From Leptospirales bacterium (lineage in GTDB: Bacteria; Spirochaetota; Leptospiria; Leptospirales; Leptonemataceae), in NCBI GenBank assembly GCA_019694655.1, contig JAIBBN010000008.1, positions 62,001-126,000 on the forward strand: DNA of 64,000 bases, in the 5' to 3' direction. The position numbers and the translations under genes were made by a program. Positions 12,915 through 28,181 of the stretch are shown piece by piece (positions within the stretch are counted from its first letter, which is position 1; each line of letters starts with the position of its first letter). The notes beneath the pieces were generated by a model that saw nothing but the letters and a program-made list of their open reading frames with translations, was not told the origin of the DNA and ran no database searches.

Positions 12915-13937
12915 TCACGACATCCCCGCTTGTAGCTTGCTCAAGGTTTCGGAAAATTCCGGCGACTGATAGTAAGGCGCAAGCCGGCGACGCACTGCAG
13001 CTTCCAGTTGACCGTCGGCGAGCATCGCCTCCAGCGCGGGCTGCAGCTCGCCACTCCATCGCTGGCAGAGGCGATCGCGGCCAAGGCCAAGCATTGCCAG
13101 GCATTCCATCGCCGGCCGCCGTCCCTGGCGCTCATAGACAAACTGCACCAAGAAGGCGCGCAAGTGCGCAGCGAGCTCCGAGCCGTGGAAACTGTGCGCG
13201 GCGGCCTGCAGTGCGCGGCTGTAACCCGCCAATTTTTCGGGCGGCATAAAGTCGATCGCCTCGCGAACCCCGTGTGTCGACAGTTCGCTCCAGAGCTGTT
13301 CCGCAGCTTCGCGAATGGTTTCCGGCTTGAGGTTTTTGTTTAAGAATTCCTCCGAACGGCGAATCGCGCTATTGATGTAGCGCTTGATGAATTCCTTGAG
13401 TCCCTTTTCGGGCCCATCGCCGACCAGATTCTGTCCGGCCTTCAGCAGCATATTGAAACCCGGTATATGCGCCGCAAATTTTCCGCCTTCCGCCAGAAAC
13501 TCACTGATTCCATTGAACAGCAGCTCGGCAATCAAAAGAGCAAAGATTGGACTGTTGACGCCAGAACGAATCAGCACGCGTCGGATGGCCGCATCCTCCA
13601 TGATGTCGTCGGCGACGAAAAAAAACGCCTCATGGGAAAGTAAATCATTGAGCATTTCCGGACGCTTCTGGAGCTCCTGCAGCATAGCTGCTGCCAGCTC
13701 GCGAAGCAGAAGCTCGGCCAGAGGAGAAACGTCTTCCGTTGAACTGATTCGATTGAGGATGCGCAAGGCGCTCTCGGCAGGGAGGACGCGTTGCAGCGGC
13801 GTTTGCTCCAGCCAGTCAAGCAGCGCCTCCAATTCTTGAAGCATTTCCTTCTGTAGCGCGCCCGGCGCTTGCAAACGCTGCAATTCAAAGGCGACATGCG
13901 CTTCCAGCAGGGCTGCGGCAGCTGGATGACTGCTCAC
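12915..13937 (-). CDS. Hypothetical alpha-helical protein coupled to the outer-membrane peptidase gene
   Basis: A 340-residue protein with no signal peptide and no clear membrane segment apart from a moderately hydrophobic stretch near residue 150 (SPIFALLIAELLFNGI). It is Leu/Ala/Glu-rich and predicted mainly helical. The start is a GTG at 13937 whose GTGA overlaps the stop of the upstream 1011-residue protein; the frame upstream of it is shadow. The overlap implies coupled translation and a linked function, but no domain is recognised. Confidence 0.72.
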   Translation of the reverse strand: MSSHPAAAALLEAHVAFELQRLQAPGALQKEMLQELEALLDWLEQTPLQRVLPAESALRILNRISSTEDVSPLAELLLRELAAAMLQELQKRPEMLNDLLSHEAFFFVADDIMEDAAIRRVLIRSGVNSPIFALLIAELLFNGISEFLAEGGKFAAHIPGFNMLLKAGQNLVGDGPEKGLKEFIKRYINSAIRRSEEFLNKNLKPETIREAAEQLWSELSTHGVREAIDFMPPEKLAGYSRALQAAAHSFHGSELAAHLRAFLVQFVYERQGRRPAMECLAMLGLGRDRLCQRWSGELQPALEAMLADGQLEAAVRRRLAPYYQSPEFSETLSKLQAGMS

Positions 13938-16900
13938 TGCAATACGCCGCCCGCAAATGGATCGCGGAAGTAGCCAGTTTGCTCGCGACGATTGGGGAAG
14001 CCATGGCGGTAGGCGCGTTCCAGGGGCGAGCGTTGCCGCTCTGCGCCGACTACGTCGCCGCCGAACTCGGCATTGAAGGCGACAGACCACTGGCCTTCGC
14101 CGGCCGGACCATCGCCGTGCGCATAGCTAATCTTGATTTCCGGCAGCGAAAGCCAGATTACATCAAGGCCTACAACAATGGCCGCGCCATAAGCCGGAGT
14201 CCAGCGCTCGCGCATCAGCTGTCGGTCAAATACCTGGCCTACGTCGTAGAAGGCATGTAGACCGATCTGGTTCAGGCGAAAGGACGGCGTACCTTCAAAG
14301 GTCGCATCGAAGAGCGTGAGCAGCGGCAGACGATATTCATAGGTAAAGACGGCTGCCGAATGGTCGCGCAGCGACTTCTGGTAATTCTGCCCGCGAACAA
14401 ATCGACTGAGCGGAACGCGCTGCAGTTCTCGGTCCGGTCCATAGCTGCCGTAACCGTAAGCATTCAAATAGTTTACATGGTGCGACCAGAGCGAAGGCAA
14501 ATAGAGGGCAAGGCCGGCTTCGCCGACTCCGTACTCAAGGTGATGAAGGTAATCGCGCTCCAGGCGGTCCTTGCTCTCGGACCGCAAGTAGTAGTCGCTG
14601 CTTGCAAAGAGCAGCCAGCCATGCTCGGCGCTGATTGATTGTGGATAGTAGTGCAGATCGCCGGCCAGCAAAACAAACGAAGGTCCGCTCAAATTTAAAT
14701 CGCGCGCGTCGTATTGAACGGCGCGCAGGCGGCGCGCATTGCGCAGTTTCTGGCTGGCATAGCCCAGCATTGCCTGCAGGCTTAGATAGTCGCCAAGCGT
14801 TAGGAAGCGGAAATAGCCGCGCGCTTCTTCAAAACGCGGATAGGCGTCGTCGCAAAGAAAACGAAGCGGATCGTCCTCGCGCAAACAGCCGGGCGCACGG
14901 TCGCTCTTGGAGTAATTGCCGGCATAACTCAAGGAAAGGCCAATGGCCCAGCGCGAGTAATCATAGATGGCAGCGATCAGCGGATCAGGATGCGACGGAG
15001 CAATGGCCGCAGTCAGCGAATGGCGAAAAAGTGGATCGCGACCCTCTGCCGCCAGATTGAAGGCGCTCAGCGGACCAAGCAGACCCAGCAAATAGGGCCG
15101 GAAACTCAGGATCGCCGAATAGTCTTCGTCACGCCAACCCTCGGCCAGACCCTCGGCCGACGCTCCTCCCTCTGGAAAGTAACTCTGCCCCTCGCCGGCA
15201 GCCGGCGGCGCCTCCAGCGGCGCGGGCGGCTCATCCTCCGGCGCTGGCGCCTGAAAGAGATCGGTCGATTCGGCCAGCAGTTGATCGCCTCGAAAGCGAA
15301 TCAGATCGAAGCCGTCTTCGAAATAAGCCAGAGCGTAAAGACCATCCGGCGACGGCGTAGGAAAGAACGCGCCCGTTCTCATGCGCGTCAGCTGCGTCGC
15401 TTTGCCATCGCTGATCGCAACCTGGTACAGATTGAAGACTCCGTCAACATCGGAGGTAAAGAGTACGGCCGTCGCATCCTGATTGAAGCGCAACTGCGCT
15501 TTGACGCCAGGCCCGCCCAGCAGTTTGCGACATCCCTCGCCGCTCAAAGGGCAGATGTAGATTGCGCCCTGGCCCCGTTCGCCAAAGCGTACCGCCGCCG
15601 CGACCAGCGTGGCATCCGGCGAAAGAGCGATGTCCTGAATGAATCCGGTAAAGGGCGTCTCCAGCAGAGTACGCTCCTCGGTCCACTGCTTGTCCGCATC
15701 GCGACGCGCAATCATCAGGCGGCGACGGAGATCATCGTGGTCGACATAGGCAAGCGTGGCGCCGTCGGCGGATAGCTGCGGAAATGCGGCGCTGCGCTCG
15801 GAGAAAAGGCGACGGCGACCAAACCAGCCGGAATTATCGCTAAGCTGGAATCGGTAGCCAAGCGGACCGGCAAAGTAGCGCGCCAGACTGTATACGCTGC
15901 TGCCGTCAGCCGCTTCGCTGAATCCCATGGCCGATCGAGTTCTTCGGATCCGGCGGCTTTCCCCGTCCGCCTCCAGGCTGTAGAGTCCGGCGATTCGATC
16001 AGAGGGCGCCGCATAGTAATGCGGACGACCGTCGGCGCCCAGATAAAGGAAGTCCTTCACATATCCGTCATTGGTAAGTCGCTCAAAGGAACTGGCCCCG
16101 GCCGCTTCAATTCGCCCAATTTCTTGCTGGAATTCGGCAAGTTCCGACTCGCGGTATTCGGCGTAGCCTCGTGCAATGTTGACGCGGCCGCGTAGGCCTT
16201 CGTCCACGTCCAGAGGTACGCGATCCATCGACCAGTATCGGGGAACCAAATCCTCTCCGTATCGACCGCTCAAATAGTGCAGCATGCGGCCGCCGTAAAG
16301 GTAGTAGATGTAGCCAAGCGGCCAACGTCGCCCCCCGATCATTAGCTCCGTTAGACCAGGGAAGCGATCGGCCAGAATGGCGCTGCGAACCACCATTCTT
16401 GTGTAGGGGTCGTTTACGCGTCCGCCGCCCGGTCGACTTTCTTCATAGACAGCCGAGCCTTCGACAAAGGCCAGAGGGGAAAGCAGATTGGGCGGGAAAC
16501 CCAGAAGAATTCGAAAGAAGCCCAACAGCGGCCGCTGAAAATCCCACTGGCGCAGCGTAAGGATGTGCGTGTATTCGTGGCGGATCAGCAGCTCCAGCCA
16601 GAGGTCATAGCGAGCAAATTTTGCACCGCGCGGATTTTCCAGGAACAATACGATCTGGTCCAGGCCGTAGGGCGTCGCAAAAGCGTTCACCAGATCGCTC
16701 TGAAAAATCAGAGTGATGTGCGTATTTTCGGCGCCGGATTGGTAGCGACCCTCCAGCTCTGTGTGCAAGCGCTCAGCGATCTGTCCGGTCTTGACGGCAA
16801 AGTCAATCCGACCTTCCGGATAGTGAATCTGAAAGTGGGGCGTGCGCAACGTACGCCAGCTCTGGAATCGATCAGGGCTCAGCTGCGCCAGCAGCGGCGC

Positions 16901-16969
16901 CGGCAGGATCAAGCAGAAGCCCAGGGCCAGAACTGGCAGGCAATGGTCAAGGGCGCGCCTGATCAACAT
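13934..16969 (-). CDS. Outer-membrane-type protein: HExxH peptidase, beta-propeller and C-terminal barrel
   Basis: A 1011-residue exported protein with a signal peptide at residues 1-28 (cleavage near PLLAQ). Residues ~35-250 form a peptidase-MA-like metalloprotease domain with HEYTH at 131-135 and a downstream FVEGSAVYEE supplying the third zinc ligand. Residues ~290-580 contain repeated TolB/WD40-like blades (ALSPDATLVAAAVRFG, PTPSPDGLYALAYFE). An acidic Pro-rich linker follows, then ~400 residues of aromatic-alternating strands typical of an outer-membrane beta-barrel, ending near WSVAFNAEFGG. The ATG at 16969 follows AAGGA. It is downstream of metG and translationally coupled to the 340-residue gene that follows. 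The cellular target is unknown. Confidence 0.8.
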   Translation of the reverse strand: MLIRRALDHCLPVLALGFCLILPAPLLAQLSPDRFQSWRTLRTPHFQIHYPEGRIDFAVKTGQIAERLHTELEGRYQSGAENTHITLIFQSDLVNAFATPYGLDQIVLFLENPRGAKFARYDLWLELLIRHEYTHILTLRQWDFQRPLLGFFRILLGFPPNLLSPLAFVEGSAVYEESRPGGGRVNDPYTRMVVRSAILADRFPGLTELMIGGRRWPLGYIYYLYGGRMLHYLSGRYGEDLVPRYWSMDRVPLDVDEGLRGRVNIARGYAEYRESELAEFQQEIGRIEAAGASSFERLTNDGYVKDFLYLGADGRPHYYAAPSDRIAGLYSLEADGESRRIRRTRSAMGFSEAADGSSVYSLARYFAGPLGYRFQLSDNSGWFGRRRLFSERSAAFPQLSADGATLAYVDHDDLRRRLMIARRDADKQWTEERTLLETPFTGFIQDIALSPDATLVAAAVRFGERGQGAIYICPLSGEGCRKLLGGPGVKAQLRFNQDATAVLFTSDVDGVFNLYQVAISDGKATQLTRMRTGAFFPTPSPDGLYALAYFEDGFDLIRFRGDQLLAESTDLFQAPAPEDEPPAPLEAPPAAGEGQSYFPEGGASAEGLAEGWRDEDYSAILSFRPYLLGLLGPLSAFNLAAEGRDPLFRHSLTAAIAPSHPDPLIAAIYDYSRWAIGLSLSYAGNYSKSDRAPGCLREDDPLRFLCDDAYPRFEEARGYFRFLTLGDYLSLQAMLGYASQKLRNARRLRAVQYDARDLNLSGPSFVLLAGDLHYYPQSISAEHGWLLFASSDYYLRSESKDRLERDYLHHLEYGVGEAGLALYLPSLWSHHVNYLNAYGYGSYGPDRELQRVPLSRFVRGQNYQKSLRDHSAAVFTYEYRLPLLTLFDATFEGTPSFRLNQIGLHAFYDVGQVFDRQLMRERWTPAYGAAIVVGLDVIWLSLPEIKISYAHGDGPAGEGQWSVAFNAEFGGDVVGAERQRSPLERAYRHGFPNRREQTGYFRDPFAGGVLQ

Positions 16970-17047
16970 CCATCCTTGGAGACTGCCTGCCGCCAGGCCA
17001 GTCAATCAATTGCAGCAGTACTAACAGACTGTTTTTCCCCGGAATCG

Positions 17048-19194: not shown

Positions 19195-19485
19195 TCAATC
19201 GATGCGGCGAAAGGCCTGGCCGCGCCGACTGCGACCGTAGTAGGGCCGTCTGCTCTGCACAAAATCCGCCAGCTCCGCTCCGGCCGGCGGATCCGTTTCC
19301 CAGCGCAGCCAGAAGGAGAATTGCAAATCGCTGGCGCAGCTGGCTTCAAACTCCAGGCTGCCGCTCAGGGCGCGCCGACCACAGGCGTTGCAGCGCTGCC
19401 AGACGCCATCGACGTAAGACTTGAGCAGCTGCTGCCCGGCAGGCGCCAGGCAGCAGGGCGCAGGGCCCTCGGAATCTTCAATCAC
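19195..19485 (-). CDS. Small Cys-containing protein coupled to the 7TM adenylate cyclase
   Basis: A 96-residue protein that starts at a GTG whose GTGA overlaps the cyclase stop codon. It contains five Cys (11, 12, 32, 35, 50), with the RCNAC pair resembling half of a zinc ribbon or redox site. There is no signal peptide or membrane segment. No family is recognised. The strict overlap suggests it is made in step with the cyclase, for example as a regulator, but that is inference from position. Confidence 0.6.
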   Translation of the reverse strand: MIEDSEGPAPCCLAPAGQQLLKSYVDGVWQRCNACGRRALSGSLEFEASCASDLQFSFWLRWETDPPAGAELADFVQSRRPYYGRSRRGQAFRRID

Positions 19486-21554
19486 TTCTGGTCCAGCGCC
19501 TCTACCGGCTCCCAGTCCGCTGGCGGCCCGTACATGGCAAAAGACAGCGAGCGATCATAGTAGATACGCGCCGCGGCGTCCTGTTCATTCTGATTGAGCA
19601 CTTCCTGGAATCGATCACAGGCCGCCGGGAATTGCCGCTGCATATAGAGCGACAGGCCCTCCCGAAAGAGCGAGCGCGTGGCGATCTTCTTATCCGCTGT
19701 TGGATCTGCGTCGCGCGACAGCAATTCTATGGCCACAACCGGTTCGCGCTTTCCTTTGACTCGGACAATGTCCAGCATGCGGTGGTCATATTGCTCCAAC
19801 GACTCAATAGCATGGTAGGCTCGTTCGCTCATTACAATGGGCGCGCCGTAGATGCGAGTCAAACCTTCAATGCGCGCTGCCAGATTTGCCGCGTCGCCCA
19901 TGACATCGCCCTGCATGCGCTCGCCATCGCCCACGGTTCCCAGGCGCACAACTCCCGTATGGATTCCAATGCCGGTATGGATCGGCTCGCGCCCGCGACG
20001 TAGACGATCATCATTGTAGGCCACCAGATGGCGCTGCACGGCAAGCGCCGCGTCGATGGCATCGCGCGGCGAACGCGGAAACAATCCCATCAAGCCATCG
20101 CCGGTGTATTTGGCGATGTAACCACCATTTTGACGGATGACCGGGGCCAGCTTTCCAAAGTAAGAATTAATAAAATCGAAGTTCTGTTCCGGCGTCATCT
20201 TCTCCGAAATCGCCGTGAAGGAATGGATGTCGGTCACAATAATTGTTAGTTCGAGTTCAACATTGTCTCCCAGGCGCACATCCACGATGCTCGATTTCTT
20301 AAGGAAATGCAGAAATTCAGCAGGTACAAAACGACTGAAGGCGCGGTTCAACGCCGCCAGATCGCGGTTGGCCGACTCCAGTCCGCTGGCATATTCGCGC
20401 AGTGCGTCGCCGGCGGTATTCATGCGACGCTCCAGCATATAGCCCAGCGCCAGAGTAAGCGCAAAAACGCCGTAGTGGAAGGTATAGCGACGCCAGGGCA
20501 GCCAGCCCAGGTAGCCGCCAAGAGCGTCATAAGCCACGCCCAGCGAAAACAGAATCAACGCGATCGCATAGATACGCGCGCCGCCGTGGCCCGCCAGCGC
20601 ATCGGGCAACGAGAAGCGAATCATCGCCACAATCGATACGCCCAGCAGCACGAAGAAAAACGGAGAAAAATAGCGTTGCACGCCAAATCCAAATAATAGC
20701 AGCGCGATGGCGCCAACTCCGCCCAGCGCAGCATGCAATCGCCAGAGCACCCAGTAGGTGCGCGGCGCCGCGTCGCCGCCCAGCAAGGCCTGGAAGCGGC
20801 AGAGAGCAGCCGGCGAGAGCAAGAGCGCAATGTAGGCCGCATGCGCCAGCAAATTGCGCAGTTGCGGCTGCTGACCGGCCACGCCGGAAACGGCGAAGCA
20901 AAGCAGAAAAATGCCAAACATGAAGGCCGAAAAGGCGCCAAAGACGCTGCGCCGACGGGGGCGAATCAATGCAAAGGCCAGGGCAAATGCGCCCAGCAAT
21001 GCCGCCAGTCCGCCGGCGAAGACCGTATCGGCATGCATCCAGAAACTGCGCGCCGCCAGTACGCTTTCTTCGCCGACGCGCACATCGGCGATGACATAGC
21101 GCGCGTCGCCGGAGCTGCGCACCAGAGCAAGGGCGCGCCCGGCGGCGGCGCCAATCGGCAGCGGTGCGACAACATTTTGCACCTGAAACAACTCGTAGCG
21201 CGCGGCTTCGCTGTCCGGCAGCGGCCGATTGAGCACCTGCTCGCCCTCAACGAATACTTGAATTCCGCCGCGCAGGCCCTCAAATCCGAGCGCAGGCCGC
21301 ACCAGCGCGCTGGTATCGGGCAGATCGATGCAAAGCCAGTACAGTCCGGGCGCAGCGGCCGGTCGCAAAACCGGATGAAAGTCATGCCAGCCTTCGCCCT
21401 GACAATCGGCCGGCAGCGAAAGTTCGGCAGATTGCTGGGCGACGTGGTAGCGCATTGCGCGCACCGCATCGGTAGAGCCAGCGACGGCCGGTAAGCAGCC
21501 TGCAGCGCCAGCCAGGGCCAGGCACAGGACAACACGGACAGGGCGAGCGCGCAC
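19482..21554 (-). CDS. Membrane adenylate/guanylate cyclase with 7TMR-DISM-like sensor
   Basis: About 690 residues. An N-terminal signal or lipoprotein-like segment (LAGAAGC) leads to a ~150-residue periplasmic jelly-roll domain, seven membrane helices (~residues 185-390), a coiled linker and a class III cyclase domain. The cyclase keeps both metal Asp (TDIHSFT and KYTGDGLMG), the base-contacting Lys (RVKGK) and Asp, and the Asn/Arg of GDAANLAARIE. A ~60-residue C-terminal tail follows that is shared with the cyclase at 22824. The frame is open to 21659; no ATG exists upstream, so GTG at 21554 is chosen tentatively. It is divergent from the apyrase-like lipoprotein gene and coupled to the 96-residue gene. 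Confidence 0.87.
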   Translation of the reverse strand: MRARPVRVVLCLALAGAAGCLPAVAGSTDAVRAMRYHVAQQSAELSLPADCQGEGWHDFHPVLRPAAAPGLYWLCIDLPDTSALVRPALGFEGLRGGIQVFVEGEQVLNRPLPDSEAARYELFQVQNVVAPLPIGAAAGRALALVRSSGDARYVIADVRVGEESVLAARSFWMHADTVFAGGLAALLGAFALAFALIRPRRRSVFGAFSAFMFGIFLLCFAVSGVAGQQPQLRNLLAHAAYIALLLSPAALCRFQALLGGDAAPRTYWVLWRLHAALGGVGAIALLLFGFGVQRYFSPFFFVLLGVSIVAMIRFSLPDALAGHGGARIYAIALILFSLGVAYDALGGYLGWLPWRRYTFHYGVFALTLALGYMLERRMNTAGDALREYASGLESANRDLAALNRAFSRFVPAEFLHFLKKSSIVDVRLGDNVELELTIIVTDIHSFTAISEKMTPEQNFDFINSYFGKLAPVIRQNGGYIAKYTGDGLMGLFPRSPRDAIDAALAVQRHLVAYNDDRLRRGREPIHTGIGIHTGVVRLGTVGDGERMQGDVMGDAANLAARIEGLTRIYGAPIVMSERAYHAIESLEQYDHRMLDIVRVKGKREPVVAIELLSRDADPTADKKIATRSLFREGLSLYMQRQFPAACDRFQEVLNQNEQDAAARIYYDRSLSFAMYGPPADWEPVEALDQK

Positions 21555-21597
21555 GATGCAGAAGCGAGTTGGGCCGCTGCGCTGGCAGCAAGCCTTT

Positions 21598-21627
21598 TTG
21601 ACGGCAGGCGAAGCTTTGAAATATCTT
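21598..21627 (+). promoter_or_regulatory. Candidate sigma-70-type promoter for the apyrase-like gene
   Basis: TTGACG at 21598-21603 (5 of 6 to the -35 consensus) and TATCTT at 21622-21627 (4 of 6 to the -10) are separated by 18 bases. Transcription would begin about 30 bases before the ATG at 21663. It lies in the only intergenic space between this gene and the divergent cyclase. Confidence 0.4.
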
Positions 21628-21662
21628 GCCCTGGCGGGCCTGGCGTTGCACAGCAGCAACCG

Positions 21663-22646
21663 ATGAAGCGAGTTGCAGGCCTTTTATTCGTGTTAGGCCT
21701 GCTGGCATGCTTGCCGGCCAGGCATGATGATGCCGAAGAACTGCGACTGGTCCTTGATGCCGGCTCCTCCGGGCTGCGCGCCTGCGCCTTCCTCGTAGGC
21801 AAGAGCTGCAGTCTGACATCATGCCGCTGCCAAGTGCGGCCGGCGCGCGCTTGCTTCCGAACGGAGGGAGGTCTGGCAGAGGCGCCCGACGCGCGAGCAA
21901 TTCGCCAGCAACTGGAGCAGTCGCTGACGCCGTGGCGATCGGCAGGGCCGAACAGAATCTCCCGGGCAGCGCTGCTGGCTACCGGCGGCTTTCGACGTTT
22001 GCCCGCAGCACAGGCGCAGCAGAAGATGCAGTTGGCAGGCGAGGCCTTGCGCGATCTCTTGCCGGGTACTGTAAGCAGCGCCGCCGTGATCAGCGGCGAA
22101 CAGGAAGCGCAATTTGCCTGGCTGACGGTGCAACTGGAGCGAGGCGCGGACGACCATGCGATTCTGGAAACAGGCGGCGCGACGGTACAATATGCGGATG
22201 GAGTGCAGATGCCGCGCAGCACCCCTTGCGGTATCAATGAAATTTATGCGCGGCTGCCAGACCAGCGCAGCAGCTCCAGCTGTCGGTCGGGCGCCAGCGG
22301 AGACTACCAGGCCTGTCGCGAGGCAGTGGGAGCATTGCTAAAGCGAGCGGAGTGCAGCCTTCCGCGTCATTTCGGGGCTACGCTCTTTGTACTGGGGGCG
22401 GCATGGGGGGCCTTTGCTGCGCCTGGCGCCGCCATTGATTTGAAGGCGATCGATGAACTGGGCCTTGCCGCCTGCCGGCAAAACGCGGCGTCGGCAAGTC
22501 CGCACGGAAATCGACGCTGCTTTCTCGCCGCCTATCAACGCGAGACGTTGCAATTGTTGCAGGCCGATCGCGCCATCATTTCCGGCGAAAGCTGGCCTCG
22601 CGGAGCAAGCATCAGCGCTCCCTTTTTTCCCGACTGTTCCCGGTGA
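21663..22646 (+). CDS. Apyrase-like (GDA1/CD39 family) nucleoside phosphohydrolase, lipoprotein
   Basis: A 327-residue lipoprotein precursor with lipobox LLAC (Cys16). All five apyrase conserved regions can be matched: ACR1 LDAGSSGLR (31-39), ACR2 ATGGFR (106-111), ACR3 SGEQEAQFAW (144-153, with E148 as predicted base), ACR4 ETGGATVQ (169-176) and ACR5 SWPRGAS (310-316). GDA1/CD39 enzymes hydrolyse extracellular NTPs and NDPs; among bacteria they are known from Legionella. Ppx/GppA exopolyphosphatases share the fold and are the alternative, but DAGSS and the Trp-ending ACR3 favour apyrase. The protein is shorter than eukaryotic forms (~450). It lies between two cyclase genes. Confidence 0.75.
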   Translation: MKRVAGLLFVLGLLACLPARHDDAEELRLVLDAGSSGLRACAFLVGKSCSLTSCRCQVRPARACFRTEGGLAEAPDARAIRQQLEQSLTPWRSAGPNRISRAALLATGGFRRLPAAQAQQKMQLAGEALRDLLPGTVSSAAVISGEQEAQFAWLTVQLERGADDHAILETGGATVQYADGVQMPRSTPCGINEIYARLPDQRSSSSCRSGASGDYQACREAVGALLKRAECSLPRHFGATLFVLGAAWGAFAAPGAAIDLKAIDELGLAACRQNAASASPHGNRRCFLAAYQRETLQLLQADRAIISGESWPRGASISAPFFPDCSR

Positions 22647-22823: not shown

Positions 22824-25800
22824 ATGAATGGCGTTGCAGGCTACGATACAGGCGACATACTATTTGAAGATGAAAGGGCCATCTTTCGCAGCTCGGTCCG
22901 ACAGCGCGATGGCGCTCGCGTTCTTCTGAAAAGTCTGCGACAGAAGCGTCCGGAAGCGCGCGATGTGGCCCTGCTGCGACACGAATACGAACTTTCATCC
23001 GCTCTACCTGAGCAATATGCACTCCGCGGACTTTCCCTGGAACCGGCGCCCAACGGCTTTGTTCTCGCCCTGGCCACGCCCTGCGGTCCTTTGCTGGCAA
23101 ACAGCCTTGCACAGTCGTCGCTTTCTATCGCTGAGTTTCTCTCGCTGGCCCTGGCGCTGGCCGCGTCTTTGGAAGCCCTGCATAAGGCCGGAATCGTCCA
23201 TCGGTCGCTTTCGCCGGCATGCATATTCTGGAATCGCGAAAGCGCAGCGCTGCAGGTTGGCGATTTCCGTTTTGCCGCACGCTTGAGCCTCGAATCGTCG
23301 ACGGACGTCGCTGAACTGTCGCTGGAAGGACCGCTGGCCTATCTTTCGCCGGAACAAACCGGTCGCATGAATCGAACTGTCGATCATCGCGCCGATTTAT
23401 ACGCCGCCGGGGCCACGCTCTATCATGCGCTTTGTGGAAGACCGCCCTTTATCAGCACGGACCCTCTGGAATTGGTACACAGTCACCTGGCGCGTAATCC
23501 CGATGCGCCGCTGCGCAGCGCGGCCGGCGAGGATGTTCCTCCGCTGCTGCAAGCGCTGCTGTTGAAGCTGCTGAAGAAGGCCCCCGAGGAGCGGTACCAG
23601 TCCGCCGCCGGCCTGGCTGCAGACCTGCGGCGCGCCCAGACCTCGCTGGCCAATCAGGGCTTCGTAACCGAATTCGACCTGGGCGAAGAGGATATTTCTG
23701 ATCAATTGCAGATTCCACAGCGCCTCTACGGACGCGATGAGCAACTGATCAGACTGGCCGAGGCTTTTGAGGCCGCGATGAGCGGTCGACGCCTGGTATT
23801 TCTGGTCACCGGCGCCTCCGGGCTTGGAAAGACAGCGCTGGTCAACGAAATGCACAAGCCAATTGCTCGGCGCGGCGGCGTCTTTCTGTCCGGCAAGTTC
23901 GACCAGCTTCGCCGCGATCAGCCCTACAGCGCTCTGGCCGAAGCATTGCAAATCTGGGTGCGGCGTTTGCTCAGCGAAAGCAGCGGAGCGTTGCAACAAT
24001 GGCGCGAGCGTTTGCTTTCATTGCTTGGACTGAGCGGCGGAGCGCTGCTGGAATTTATTCCAGAACTTGCTCTGGTCCTTGGCGACCAGGCGCCGGTAGC
24101 GGAACTTCCGCCAGCCGAAGCGCAGAATAGATTGCATCATCTCTTTCGCAATCTGGTGCGCGCCCTGGAAACCCCCGGGCGACCGTTGATACTATTCCTC
24201 GACAATTTGCAATGGGCCGATCGACCGACGCTGGACCTGCTGCACGTGCTGATGTCCGATCCAGACAGCGGCGGCATCATTCTGTTTGGCGCCTACCGCG
24301 AAGAAGAGGTCGGCAGCGATCATCCGCTGCGTTCCGCACTGGCGGACATTGCCGCTGCCAGCGTGCAAACCGAGACCCTGCCGCTATCGCCGCTCAGCCT
24401 CGATGATACGATGCGATTTCTGGCAGATGCCATCCAGGCGCCGCCCGGCGAACTGGACGAACTGGCGCGCGCCTTTCTGGAACGAAGCGCGGGCAATCCG
24501 TTTCTGATGCAAGAACTGCTGCGCAGTCTGCATCGCGAAGGCAAGCTCTACTTCGACGCCGAGAGCAGACGCTGGCGATGGGATCTGGCAGCGGTGCGCT
24601 CCGGCGGACTTTCGCTGGATGCCCTGGCGCTTGTACAGCAGCGCATGGACCAATTGGGTCCCGAGCTTCAGGGGCTGCTGCTGCTTTGCGCCTGCATGGG
24701 CGCAAAGTTCAATCTGCGCCTCGTATCCCTCGCCTGGGGGCAATCGCCGCTAGAGACCCTGCAGAAGTTACTGGAATTGGCCCAGGCCGGCCTGATATCG
24801 CCGCGCGACTCCAGCTATAAATATGTTCAGGATGGCGATGAAAGCGCCAAATCAGTTTACTTTAGTTTTCTTCACGATCGATTTCTGCAGGGAGCGCGCG
24901 CTCTCTTTAGCGAGCAGAAGGAACTGGAACAGCGACTGCGAATTGGACGCACGCTACTGCAACATTTGAGTTTTGCCGAACGGGATGAACGAATCATCGA
25001 AATCGTCGAGCACCTCAACGCCGCCAGAGACCTGCTGACTGATAGCGTCGAGCGTTTGCAGGTCGCGCAACTTGACTTGCAGGCTGGCCGACGCGCCAAA
25101 CGCGCCAGCGCGCATGAAGAGGCCTTGCGTTTCTTTGCCATTGGCGCCGACTTTCTTCCGCGCAATGCTGTTGCGGAGGCCTACGAACTTTACATCCAAT
25201 TTGAGCAGGAACTGGGGGCGACCTACTACGTACTCGGCGATCTGCCGCGTTCAGAAAAGCGCTTCGAGAATGTATTGCGGCATGCACGCAGCGGCCAGGA
25301 AAAGTTGCCCGTCTTCGAAACGCGAGTGGCCGTCGCACTGGGAAAGGATCGACCGGATCTGGCTGTGCAGGCTGCGGCCGCCGCCTGTGCAGAATTGGGC
25401 GTGGCGCTGGATAGCTCGCGGCGTAAGGAGCGGCGCCGCCAATCGGAACGCCTGCGTAAACTGCTGCGCCTGAAGCGGCCGGAGGACTGGCTGCGCAGCA
25501 AGACGCTGAGCGGCAGCGAAGACAGCGCACGCTTGAAATCGCTGGTACAATTGGGCATGCCGGCCCGGGTCATTGCCAGTCCGCTGTACGGCGAATCTCT
25601 GGCCGCTATTCTGGAGATCGGCAAACAGGGCGTCGCGCCGGCGGTGGCCCAGGCGATGGCCAGCGCCTCCAGCTTTGTCGCCAGCGAGTTGCGCGATATT
25701 GAGTGCGCAGAGCTCTACGGTCGGACGGCTATTGATCTGGCCGAAAAACTGGGCGCGCGCGAGGTGCACGGGCGCATCCTGTTTGAATACGCCGCCTTTC

Positions 25801-28181
25801 TACAGTACTGGCGCAACCCGGTGCAACAATTGGAGGAGACGCTTCTGCAAGCAGCGCGCTCCGCACAGGAGACTGGCGACCTGGTTTTTGCCGCTCAGTC
25901 CTACTGGCTGATGCTGGCTGTCCAGCTCTGGACCGGCTGCACGCCTCTGGATCAACTGCAGATTCGCATTGAACGCCATTACAATGCACTGTTCAAAACC
26001 GGGCAGAACTTTGCTCTGGAATTGAACGGGCTGTTCTGGCAAACGACGCTCAACCTGGCTGGTGCGGAACGCAATCGAACCAGACTGACCGGCACACGAT
26101 TCAAACAGGATGAATCGGAGCGACGCTGGAAGGAGGCCGGAAATAGCAGCGGACTATTCTACTCTCATTTTTGCCGCGCGCTGCTGGCCGGCAACTTCGC
26201 ACATTACGATCTGGCGGTGGAACAGGGGCGGCTGGCAGAGGAATTTGGCGCGGCAGTTTCCGGCAGTCTGGCCCTGCCGTTGCTTTCCTTCCACCACGGC
26301 GTGGCCTGTGCTGGCTTGCTGCGCAGCGAGAAAATTGCCTCCAGGCGTCGCGAGCTCTCCGCCGATTTTGAAAAGCGGCAGGTGCAGCTTGCGGACTGGC
26401 GTGAACGCTCGCCGCTGAACTTCGAGCATCTGCATCTGCTGCTGGTTGCGGAAGAGGCGCGCCTGGCCGCCGAGCACGGCCGAGCAATGGAATGCTACGA
26501 TGGCGCCGCACAGCTGGCGCGTGAACGCGGCTTTCTGGCTCATGCGGCGCAGGCGGCGGAGCTGGCGGCGCGCTACTTTCTGGACCTCGGCAAGGCGCGC
26601 ATTGCCGGACTCTACATGGGCGATGCCGTTCGCGACTATCGCGCAGCGGGCTATGGCGCTCGATGCAGCGACATTGAACTGGAGCATGCTGAGCTTCTGC
26701 ACAATCTGAATCGACAGGATGCGACGAAAGGGGCGCCAGGCCCCGCCCCCTCGGGCAGCGCTCTGGATGCGCTCAGCGTACTCAAGGCCTCGCAGGCCAT
26801 CAGCGGCGAATTGGAATTGGGCAGTCTTCTGCAGCGCATGCTGCGCATCGTCATGGAAAACGCCGGCGCGCAGCGCGCCATCCTGGCACTGCCAAGAGAA
26901 GGCGAATTGCGCATTGTCGCCGAAGGACAGGTCAACCGCGACAGCGCCGACGTTTCTCTCGATCTGAAACTGGAAAACTCCGGCCGCGCCCCGGCCAGTC
27001 TGCTCCGGCTGGCTGAACGCACGCGGCAACCCGCCGTCATTGCCGAGGCCTTCACCGAAGCTGAGTTGCGCGAAGACCCTTATATTCAACAAAATCGGGT
27101 GCGATCGGCGCTATCTTACCCGCTCTTGCTGCAGGGCCAACTGCTGGGCGTACTCTACCTGGAAAACAACAGCGCAGCCGGCGCCTTCAGCAGCAGCCGC
27201 CAGGATGCGCTTTCGATGCTTGCTACCCAGATGGCGGCGTCGCTGGAAAATGCACGGCTCTATTCCAATCTGCAGCAGGCGCTTTCTGATGAGCGACAGG
27301 CGCGGCAGGAACAGACGGCGCTTACCGAAGCAGCGACTCGTTTTGTGCCGTCTGAATTTCTTCAAATACTGGGACGCAGCTCGCTGACGCAGGTGGAACT
27401 GGGCCAGAACATTGCCAGACAAATGTCGGTGCTGTTCAGCGACATTCGCGGCTTTACCGCACTATCAGAATCGATGTCTCCTCAGGAAAATTTTGAGTTT
27501 ATCAACAGTTATCTGAATCGAATCGGGCCGGTGGTGCGAGAGCACGGAGGCTTTATCGATAAGTACATTGGCGATGCCGTCATGGCCCTATTTGCGGCGC
27601 CCGCCAGCGCATTGCAATCCGCGATACGCATGCAGCAGACAGTGGCTGAGTACAACATGCATCGCGCCCGGCAAAGCTACGCGCCGATTCAGGTTGGCAT
27701 CGGGCTGAACAGCGGAGATTTGATGCTGGGCGTTATCGGCGAGGCCAACCGCATGGAGGGTACGGTGATCAGCGACGCTGTCAACCTGGCTTCGCGATTG
27801 GAGGGCTTGACCAAGATCTACGGCGCTGCAATCATACTGAGCGAGAGCATGGTCGCCGGCGTCGAGCATGCTGAGACCAGGATCCGCGAACTCGACCTGG
27901 TTCAGGTCAAAGGCAAGAAGGCGCCGGCGCGGATCTACGAGGCGCTTCCGCTGGGAATTCCGGCATTTGAAAAGAGAATCGCCAATATTGAGAAGTTTGA
28001 AGAGGCGCGCGGGCTCTACCTCGCTCGTGATTTTGCCGCCGCCAAAAAAGCCTTCGCCGCCATCCTGACCGGCGATCCGTCGGACCTTTCGGCGCGCGTC
28101 TTTGCGCTGCGTTGCCAGCAATTGCTGCAGACCGGCGTCCCCGAGGATTGGGACGGCGTCGCCATCATGCGGCGAAAGTAA
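22824..28181 (+). CDS. Giant pseudokinase / AAA ATPase / helical-repeat / GAF / adenylate cyclase protein
   Basis: A 1785-residue cytoplasmic protein. Residues 1-270 are a protein-kinase-like domain with Lys36, but the catalytic loop reads HRSLSPAC (Asp to Ser128, Asn to Cys133) and the DFG motif reads DFR (147-149), so it is probably catalytically dead. Residues ~295-620 form an AAA_16-type ATPase (Walker A GASGLGKT at 330-337, Walker B FLDN with Asp460). Helical TPR-like repeats run to ~1300, a GAF domain spans ~1313-1490, and a class III cyclase follows with metal Asp1540 and Asp1584, SDAVNLASRLE and QVKGKK. A C-terminal tail is shared with the 19482 cyclase. Related kinase/ATPase/GAF scaffolds end in histidine kinases in other bacteria. 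Confidence 0.9.
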   Translation: MNGVAGYDTGDILFEDERAIFRSSVRQRDGARVLLKSLRQKRPEARDVALLRHEYELSSALPEQYALRGLSLEPAPNGFVLALATPCGPLLANSLAQSSLSIAEFLSLALALAASLEALHKAGIVHRSLSPACIFWNRESAALQVGDFRFAARLSLESSTDVAELSLEGPLAYLSPEQTGRMNRTVDHRADLYAAGATLYHALCGRPPFISTDPLELVHSHLARNPDAPLRSAAGEDVPPLLQALLLKLLKKAPEERYQSAAGLAADLRRAQTSLANQGFVTEFDLGEEDISDQLQIPQRLYGRDEQLIRLAEAFEAAMSGRRLVFLVTGASGLGKTALVNEMHKPIARRGGVFLSGKFDQLRRDQPYSALAEALQIWVRRLLSESSGALQQWRERLLSLLGLSGGALLEFIPELALVLGDQAPVAELPPAEAQNRLHHLFRNLVRALETPGRPLILFLDNLQWADRPTLDLLHVLMSDPDSGGIILFGAYREEEVGSDHPLRSALADIAAASVQTETLPLSPLSLDDTMRFLADAIQAPPGELDELARAFLERSAGNPFLMQELLRSLHREGKLYFDAESRRWRWDLAAVRSGGLSLDALALVQQRMDQLGPELQGLLLLCACMGAKFNLRLVSLAWGQSPLETLQKLLELAQAGLISPRDSSYKYVQDGDESAKSVYFSFLHDRFLQGARALFSEQKELEQRLRIGRTLLQHLSFAERDERIIEIVEHLNAARDLLTDSVERLQVAQLDLQAGRRAKRASAHEEALRFFAIGADFLPRNAVAEAYELYIQFEQELGATYYVLGDLPRSEKRFENVLRHARSGQEKLPVFETRVAVALGKDRPDLAVQAAAAACAELGVALDSSRRKERRRQSERLRKLLRLKRPEDWLRSKTLSGSEDSARLKSLVQLGMPARVIASPLYGESLAAILEIGKQGVAPAVAQAMASASSFVASELRDIECAELYGRTAIDLAEKLGAREVHGRILFEYAAFLQYWRNPVQQLEETLLQAARSAQETGDLVFAAQSYWLMLAVQLWTGCTPLDQLQIRIERHYNALFKTGQNFALELNGLFWQTTLNLAGAERNRTRLTGTRFKQDESERRWKEAGNSSGLFYSHFCRALLAGNFAHYDLAVEQGRLAEEFGAAVSGSLALPLLSFHHGVACAGLLRSEKIASRRRELSADFEKRQVQLADWRERSPLNFEHLHLLLVAEEARLAAEHGRAMECYDGAAQLARERGFLAHAAQAAELAARYFLDLGKARIAGLYMGDAVRDYRAAGYGARCSDIELEHAELLHNLNRQDATKGAPGPAPSGSALDALSVLKASQAISGELELGSLLQRMLRIVMENAGAQRAILALPREGELRIVAEGQVNRDSADVSLDLKLENSGRAPASLLRLAERTRQPAVIAEAFTEAELREDPYIQQNRVRSALSYPLLLQGQLLGVLYLENNSAAGAFSSSRQDALSMLATQMAASLENARLYSNLQQALSDERQARQEQTALTEAATRFVPSEFLQILGRSSLTQVELGQNIARQMSVLFSDIRGFTALSESMSPQENFEFINSYLNRIGPVVREHGGFIDKYIGDAVMALFAAPASALQSAIRMQQTVAEYNMHRARQSYAPIQVGIGLNSGDLMLGVIGEANRMEGTVISDAVNLASRLEGLTKIYGAAIILSESMVAGVEHAETRIRELDLVQVKGKKAPARIYEALPLGIPAFEKRIANIEKFEEARGLYLARDFAAAKKAFAAILTGDPSDLSARVFALRCQQLLQTGVPEDWDGVAIMRRK

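Follow-up and report, generated by a model that had tools for sequence, protein, structure and literature searches.

A predicted pseudokinase in a giant HstK-type protein with an adenylyl-type cyclase domain from a Leptospirales bacterium

The 1785-amino-acid protein described here belongs to the HstK-type proteins, a widespread family of giant signalling proteins in bacteria, and we read it, with moderate confidence, as an HstK-type STAND protein with a class III adenylyl cyclase output whose kinase domain is secondarily without phosphotransfer and has been kept as an allosteric module. It is encoded by a single open reading frame without internal stops in the window (the whole stretch of 64,000 nucleotides that was analysed). 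Pfam matches to Pkinase, AAA_16, GAF and Guanylate_cyc follow one another in that order, each exceeding its curated cut-off (Table 1). An N-terminal Hanks-type kinase fold carrying the SPEQTGRMNR signature, then an AAA_16/STAND domain, TPR-like helices and a GAF domain make up the HstK-type chassis, to which interchangeable output enzymes are joined; the helical repeats and GAF domain expected in an earlier note on this DNA are both present, as helix pairs in the AlphaFold2 model and as a Pfam match.

Table 1. Features of the giant cyclase gene, in window coordinates
Feature	Position	Strand	Basis
Whole gene: kinase-like / STAND ATPase / helical repeats / GAF / class III cyclase	22824..28181	+	ORF, Pfam
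Kinase-like domain, aa 7-278, predicted pseudokinase	22842..23657	+	Pfam Pkinase 25-260, E 3e-17; AlphaFold2; PDB kinases
Degenerate catalytic loop H126-R127-S128...C133 (HRD Asp to Ser, metal Asn to Cys)	23199..23222	+	Alignment to PknB and homologues
D147-F148-R149, DFG with Gly to Arg	23262..23270	+	Alignment to PknB and homologues
SPEQTGRMNR signature, aa 175-184, kept, after activation segment	23346..23375	+	Near-invariant in HstK-type family
STAND-type NTPase domain, aa 296-500, starting with LYGRDE motif	23709..24323	+	Pfam AAA_16 300-484, E 2e-38; STAND fold match
Walker A GASGLGKT, aa 330-337, intact	23811..23834	+	Alignment
Walker B LILFLDN, aa 455-461, second acid to Asn461	24186..24206	+	Alignment
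Post-NTPase region, aa 501-740, including expected STAND lid / winged helix; subdomain limits approximate	24324..25043	+	AlphaFold2; Foldseek: STAND proteins, Cdc6/Orc1
TPR-like helical repeats, aa 741-1304	25044..26735	+	Helix pairs throughout, pLDDT ~71-97
GAF domain, aa 1332-1474	26817..27245	+	Pfam, E 3e-13
Class III nucleotide cyclase, aa 1533-1700, adenylyl-type, catalytic residues intact	27420..27923	+	Pfam Guanylate_cyc, E 1.5e-19; alignment to CyaB 3r5g and Cya2 2w01
C-terminal helical tail, aa 1715-1785, ending in VPEDWDGVAIMRRK	27966..28178	+	Common to other cyclases of the genome

Alignment with Mycobacterium tuberculosis PknB and ~150 homologues places S128 opposite the Asp of HRD, C133 opposite the Asn of the catalytic loop and R149 opposite the Gly of DFG, so that the numbering of these losses in the earlier note is exact (for the C-lobe, the PknB row comes from a direct alignment). 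The kinase alignment of residues 1-270 proposed as a check revealed no alternative conserved Asp within the catalytic loop in the PknB and ~150-homologue alignment. The family hinge Glu-Asp is A84-T85 in the giant cyclase, the catalytic-loop Lys position is S130, and the glycine-rich loop is missing. Nearly all HstK-type members have this loop only in degenerate form or not at all, among them the intact orthologue in genome G011 and others that are otherwise catalytically complete. The HRD/HKD Asp and metal Asn that mark an active Hanks-type kinase are thus replaced, and a kinase fold that has lost at least one core catalytic motif, as found here, corresponds to a pseudokinase. The domain is probably catalytically dead, judging from its sequence, and the losses of Asp, Asn and DFG Gly support the earlier pseudokinase proposal as a prediction. 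The giant cyclase deviates at 8 of the 50 kinase-domain sites conserved at >=80%, with 2 deviations among the 5 core catalytic residues, and by count the excess of core catalytic sites among deviating kinase sites is not significant (p = 0.18). The catalytic Asn is also lost in 13/17 homologues lacking the Asp, versus 4/~132 of those bearing it. The case for a pseudokinase lies in what the lost residues do chemically and in the joint loss of Asp and Asn in the family, not in the number of deviations. Lys36 (VAIK-like), the alpha-C Glu54 and the DFG Asp147 are retained, so nucleotide binding or weak kinase activity may persist. For the cyanobacterial kinase SpkE, which is without the Asp and several other conserved residues, no kinase activity was seen (PMC2176072).

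AlphaFold2 models built with locus-derived alignments reached a pLDDT of 89.5 for residues 1-600 and 87.7 for residues 285-1310. The kinase-like domain, with pLDDT mostly 85-97, retrieved PDB kinases in Foldseek at TM-scores on target of 0.8-0.86. The best matches to the 285-1310 model were the STAND-TPR protein 6mfv, Apaf-1, MalT (8bob) and CED-4, with modest TM-scores on target (0.27-0.57) that place the STAND match at the level of fold class only. A sequence search for a solved relative of the STAND-TPR part returned none that was convincing. Modelling, as had been suggested, therefore gives an N-terminal protein kinase fold and a STAND fold for the ATPase part, in agreement with the STAND-like ATPase first proposed.

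The predicted pseudokinase state is derived rather than ancestral, the residues having been lost in this copy, because the syntenic orthologue L022 (G011) and most homologues keep the catalytic Asp and the DFG motif. L022, the nearest relative at 41% identity, is also cyclase-ended and retains the K, HKD, N and DFG. Its locus shares gene order with the window on both sides: a nucleoside phosphatase-like gene, a 7TM cyclase gene and the ORF at 13937-17005 on one, and phosphoglucose isomerase, a response regulator (76% identity) and the latter's neighbours on the other. The phosphatase-like gene just upstream (window 21663-22646, +) has a weak GDA1/CD39 nucleoside phosphatase match (E 1.4e-6), its place in the gene order being conserved with G011. 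The receptor-type 7TMR-DISM cyclase gene (window 19482-21659) is encoded on the opposite (-) strand, ~1.2 kb upstream of the giant cyclase, and this pairing is likewise conserved in G011. Support in the larger tree is 92 for the query with L022 and 96 for a five-protein clade. In a 17-taxon tree the exact sister of the query is left unresolved (support near the query 47-49), and the orthology of L022 therefore rests on synteny and the larger tree. The clade mates are mixed, L024 being without Asp and Asn, while in L023 and L025 Glu replaces the DFG Asp and Arg replaces the Lys.

The comparison covered 22 genomes of the taxonomic family, all from outside the window's genus. Homologues with this chassis occur in 55/150 related genomes, and a GTDB genome scan gave at least 579 candidates, the best 80 belonging to cyanobacteria, proteobacteria, Bacteroidota, Chloroflexota and others. 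The closest named relative among the matches listed, L091, belongs to a Leptospirales MAG. The catalytic Asp is retained in 132/149 homologues. A tree computed without the kinase columns requires a minimum of 13 changes in the state of the Asp and a minimum of 28 in the output. The question raised earlier of whether the HRD Asp is always absent is thus answered in the negative by the intact HRD/DFG of the G011 orthologue and by these counts; a pseudokinase is not what the family as a whole is founded on, and the finding is therefore one of derived loss in one member. Loss of the Asp at first appeared linked to outputs other than histidine kinase (Fisher p 0.003) and to deviation in Walker A/B (Fisher p 0.004), but neither link survived a comparison of independent tree pairs, and both were rejected once phylogeny was controlled. 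All three HstK-type proteins in the window's genome (G000) lack the catalytic Asp (S, A and S). The two paralogues, L083 (G000:C3:72900-79300) and L084 (G000:C4:236900-243100), are SpoIIE-ended, with the Asp replaced by Ala and Ser. The only Hanks-type kinase found intact in G000 belongs to a different kinase/cyclase giant (C1:115000-120700), and a fifth Pkinase match resembles the UbiB/ABC1 type.

Conservation of the fold can be set against conservation of the chemistry. Among 69 homologues, a count that leaves out 80 named loci found via patterns from the SPEQTGR region itself, residues H126, P131, Y173, P176, E177, G180, D187, R189, D191, Y193, G196 and R257 are >=95% conserved and all are kept in the giant cyclase. 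The same applies to the SPEQTGR and YSLG surroundings and to R257-Y258. The catalytic Asp is kept in 55/68 homologues not selected by pattern. This C-lobe conservation is the main evidence that the kinase fold may be held by selection more than catalysis is. Of the tree length, the query accounts for least in the cyclase (0.04) and for most in the kinase N-lobe (0.125), followed by the C-lobe at 0.106 and the NTPase at 0.10. These branch shares, with kinase and ATPase fastest and cyclase slowest in the query, would point the same way. Repeated loss of the Asp beside a near-invariant C-lobe suggests that kinase chemistry is often not needed for output control.

In the ATPase, Walker A and the first Walker B acid (Asp460) are intact, and an NTPase fold with Walker A followed by a helical sensor is what characterizes STAND NTPases. 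Position 461 is Asp in 142/145 aligned rows and Asn only in the giant cyclase and L030, a homologue likewise without the kinase catalytic Asp. The two-acid form of Walker B is therefore lacking, and the earlier description of the AAA ATPase motifs as intact needs correcting at this position. In STAND and AAA proteins the second of the two Walker B acids is regarded as the residue that positions the attacking water. By analogy, Asn461 would be expected to slow ATP hydrolysis and prolong the ATP-bound state. In the STAND protein NLRP3, mutation of Walker B acids slows ATP hydrolysis; one such mutant, E306Q, shows raised activity in cells, but others are loss-of-function mutants (PMC9633759), so the effect of N461 could go either way.

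Aligned with CyaB and Cya2, the cyclase domain has both metal Asp residues (D1540 and D1584), the pair that specifies adenine (Lys1580 and Thr1647) and the two residues that act on the transition state (Asn1654 and Arg1658), with roles as generally assigned in class III cyclases. The domain therefore has the residues of a class III adenylyl cyclase when held against CyaB. The motifs are intact as originally claimed, and the output should be an adenylyl cyclase making cAMP. A cyclase at this position had been thought notable on the grounds that such proteins usually end in histidine kinases, a view that overstates its rarity: among 58 relatives scanned with Pfam the outputs are SpoIIE phosphatase (29), cyclase (16) and histidine kinase (HATPase, 10), and Trichodesmium Tery_2857, with GAF and CYCc domains and clustering with HstK kinases, was listed in 2007 (PMC2176072). 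The 150 collected homologues comprise 68 with histidine kinase, 35 with SpoIIE/PP2C phosphatase, 22 with cyclase and 4 with GGDEF outputs, the rest being truncated or unassigned; histidine kinases lead here because the named sample is rich in cyanobacteria. Three of the four GGDEF-ended members (L160, L169 and L154, from Marinobacterium, Amphritea and Clostridium) lack the catalytic Asp as well as that of DFG. Class III cyclase matches number ~43 loci in the 3.9-Mb genome G000, so one more cyclase is not unusual.

We infer the inactivity of the kinase, its allosteric role, ATP-driven switching and the direction of control, and propose the following working. The TPR-like helices and/or the GAF domain would sense a signal that toggles the STAND ATPase between an ADP-closed and an ATP-open state. 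The kinase fold would serve as a structural and allosteric module acting on this ATPase, whose state would set the geometry of the cyclase dimer and hence the cAMP output. It is plausible that the kinase-like domain gates cAMP synthesis in this way. A bolder version, in which the kinase has become a pseudokinase and the STAND ATPase a slow hydrolyser, giving a purely allosteric, ATP-latched cAMP switch with the kinase fold selected family-wide, is tentative and to our minds rather doubtful.

The main rival to an allosteric module is neutral decay, whereby the kinase domain would be vestigial, a fold without a role, attached to a working STAND-TPR-GAF cyclase. Repeated loss of the catalytic Asp (the >=13 state changes), its loss in all three HstK-type paralogues of G000 and the position of the kinase and NTPase branches as the fastest parts in the query would all fit such decay. 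However, truncation or loss of C-lobe residues would be likely in a domain of 280 aa that served no purpose, whereas the near-invariant C-lobe residues are all kept except two poorly aligned at 230-231, the frame is intact and the kinase fold is confidently predicted; we consider decay unlikely. A domain that is still an enzyme, binding ATP via Lys36/Glu54/Asp147 and, despite lacking the Asp, carrying out a weak or atypical phosphotransfer or some other kind of nucleotide transfer, appears less probable again. The retention of those three residues speaks for it, as does the history of CASK, HER3 and SelO, predicted pseudokinases that later proved active, but the Asp, Asn, DFG Gly, catalytic-loop Lys and hinge Glu-Asp are altered and the glycine loop is missing. 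That the kinase is active after all, the substitutions being assembly or sequencing errors, is highly improbable. G000 is indeed in draft form, with 33 contigs and values of 95.85 for completeness and 2.93 for contamination, but the motif changes are several, separate and at codon level in a frame open throughout, the protein shares no more than 41% identity with its closest relative, and the independently assembled homologues L024, L085 and L086 show comparable losses.

The closest known systems to the proposed allosteric cyclase are the HstK / cbSTKIII dual kinases of cyanobacteria (NCBI product name 'trifunctional serine/threonine-protein kinase/ATP-binding protein/sensor histidine kinase'), which share the chassis from residue 1 to ~1490 at ~30-35% identity, an HKD-type catalytic-loop ancestry and a GAF domain preceding the output (PMC2176072). 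They differ in that a class III cyclase replaces HisKA/HATPase in the giant cyclase, which has also lost the catalytic Asp and Asn. Strict membership of the dual kinases was rejected as the histidine kinase output is absent, leaving the protein a member of the wider chassis only. The same domain order and output are found in L022 (G011), L099 (Nostoc punctiforme), the cyanobacterial L129, L140 and L145, the Bacteroidota L143 and L167, and Trichodesmium Tery_2857. Unlike the giant cyclase, the seven L-numbered proteins keep the catalytic Asp and Asn; Tery_2857 was compared by its published listing alone (PMC2176072).

Receptor guanylyl cyclases (GC-A, GC-C) also carry a pseudokinase before a class III cyclase, where it is thought to relay the signal (PMC10400071). 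By analogy the giant cyclase most likely works like these proteins without being one of them: unlike it, they are membrane receptors, guanylyl rather than adenylyl cyclases, and without STAND ATPase, TPR or GAF. MalT and Apaf-1 share the architecture of NTPase plus helical sensor and the fold class, but their outputs are DNA binding and caspase recruitment respectively and they have no kinase domain; Asn as second Walker B acid further sets the giant cyclase apart from them. The TOMM system kinase/cyclase fusion protein (TIGR03903) likewise combines kinase, ATPase and cyclase in one chain. Assignment to it was rejected at 109.8 bits against a cut-off of 705.75, the best partial match (E 1e-31) covering aa 300-780 only. 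A literature search for a pseudokinase-STAND-cyclase as such found nothing.

Cyanobacteria, spirochaetes and proteobacteria commonly carry HstK-type proteins. The giant cyclase with its residues lost and the syntenic G011 orthologue with them intact, both with the same cyclase output, form a natural pair that offers a direct way to ask whether output control needs kinase chemistry. The ATP-latched allosteric cAMP switch would, if true, give bacteria a cytosolic equivalent of the receptor guanylyl cyclases. The helical tail that ends the protein in a P-x-x-W-x-G motif (window 27966-28178) is also present in the otherwise different cyclases L004, L013, L040 and L089, and cyclases bearing it occur in the window's genome and in related genomes.
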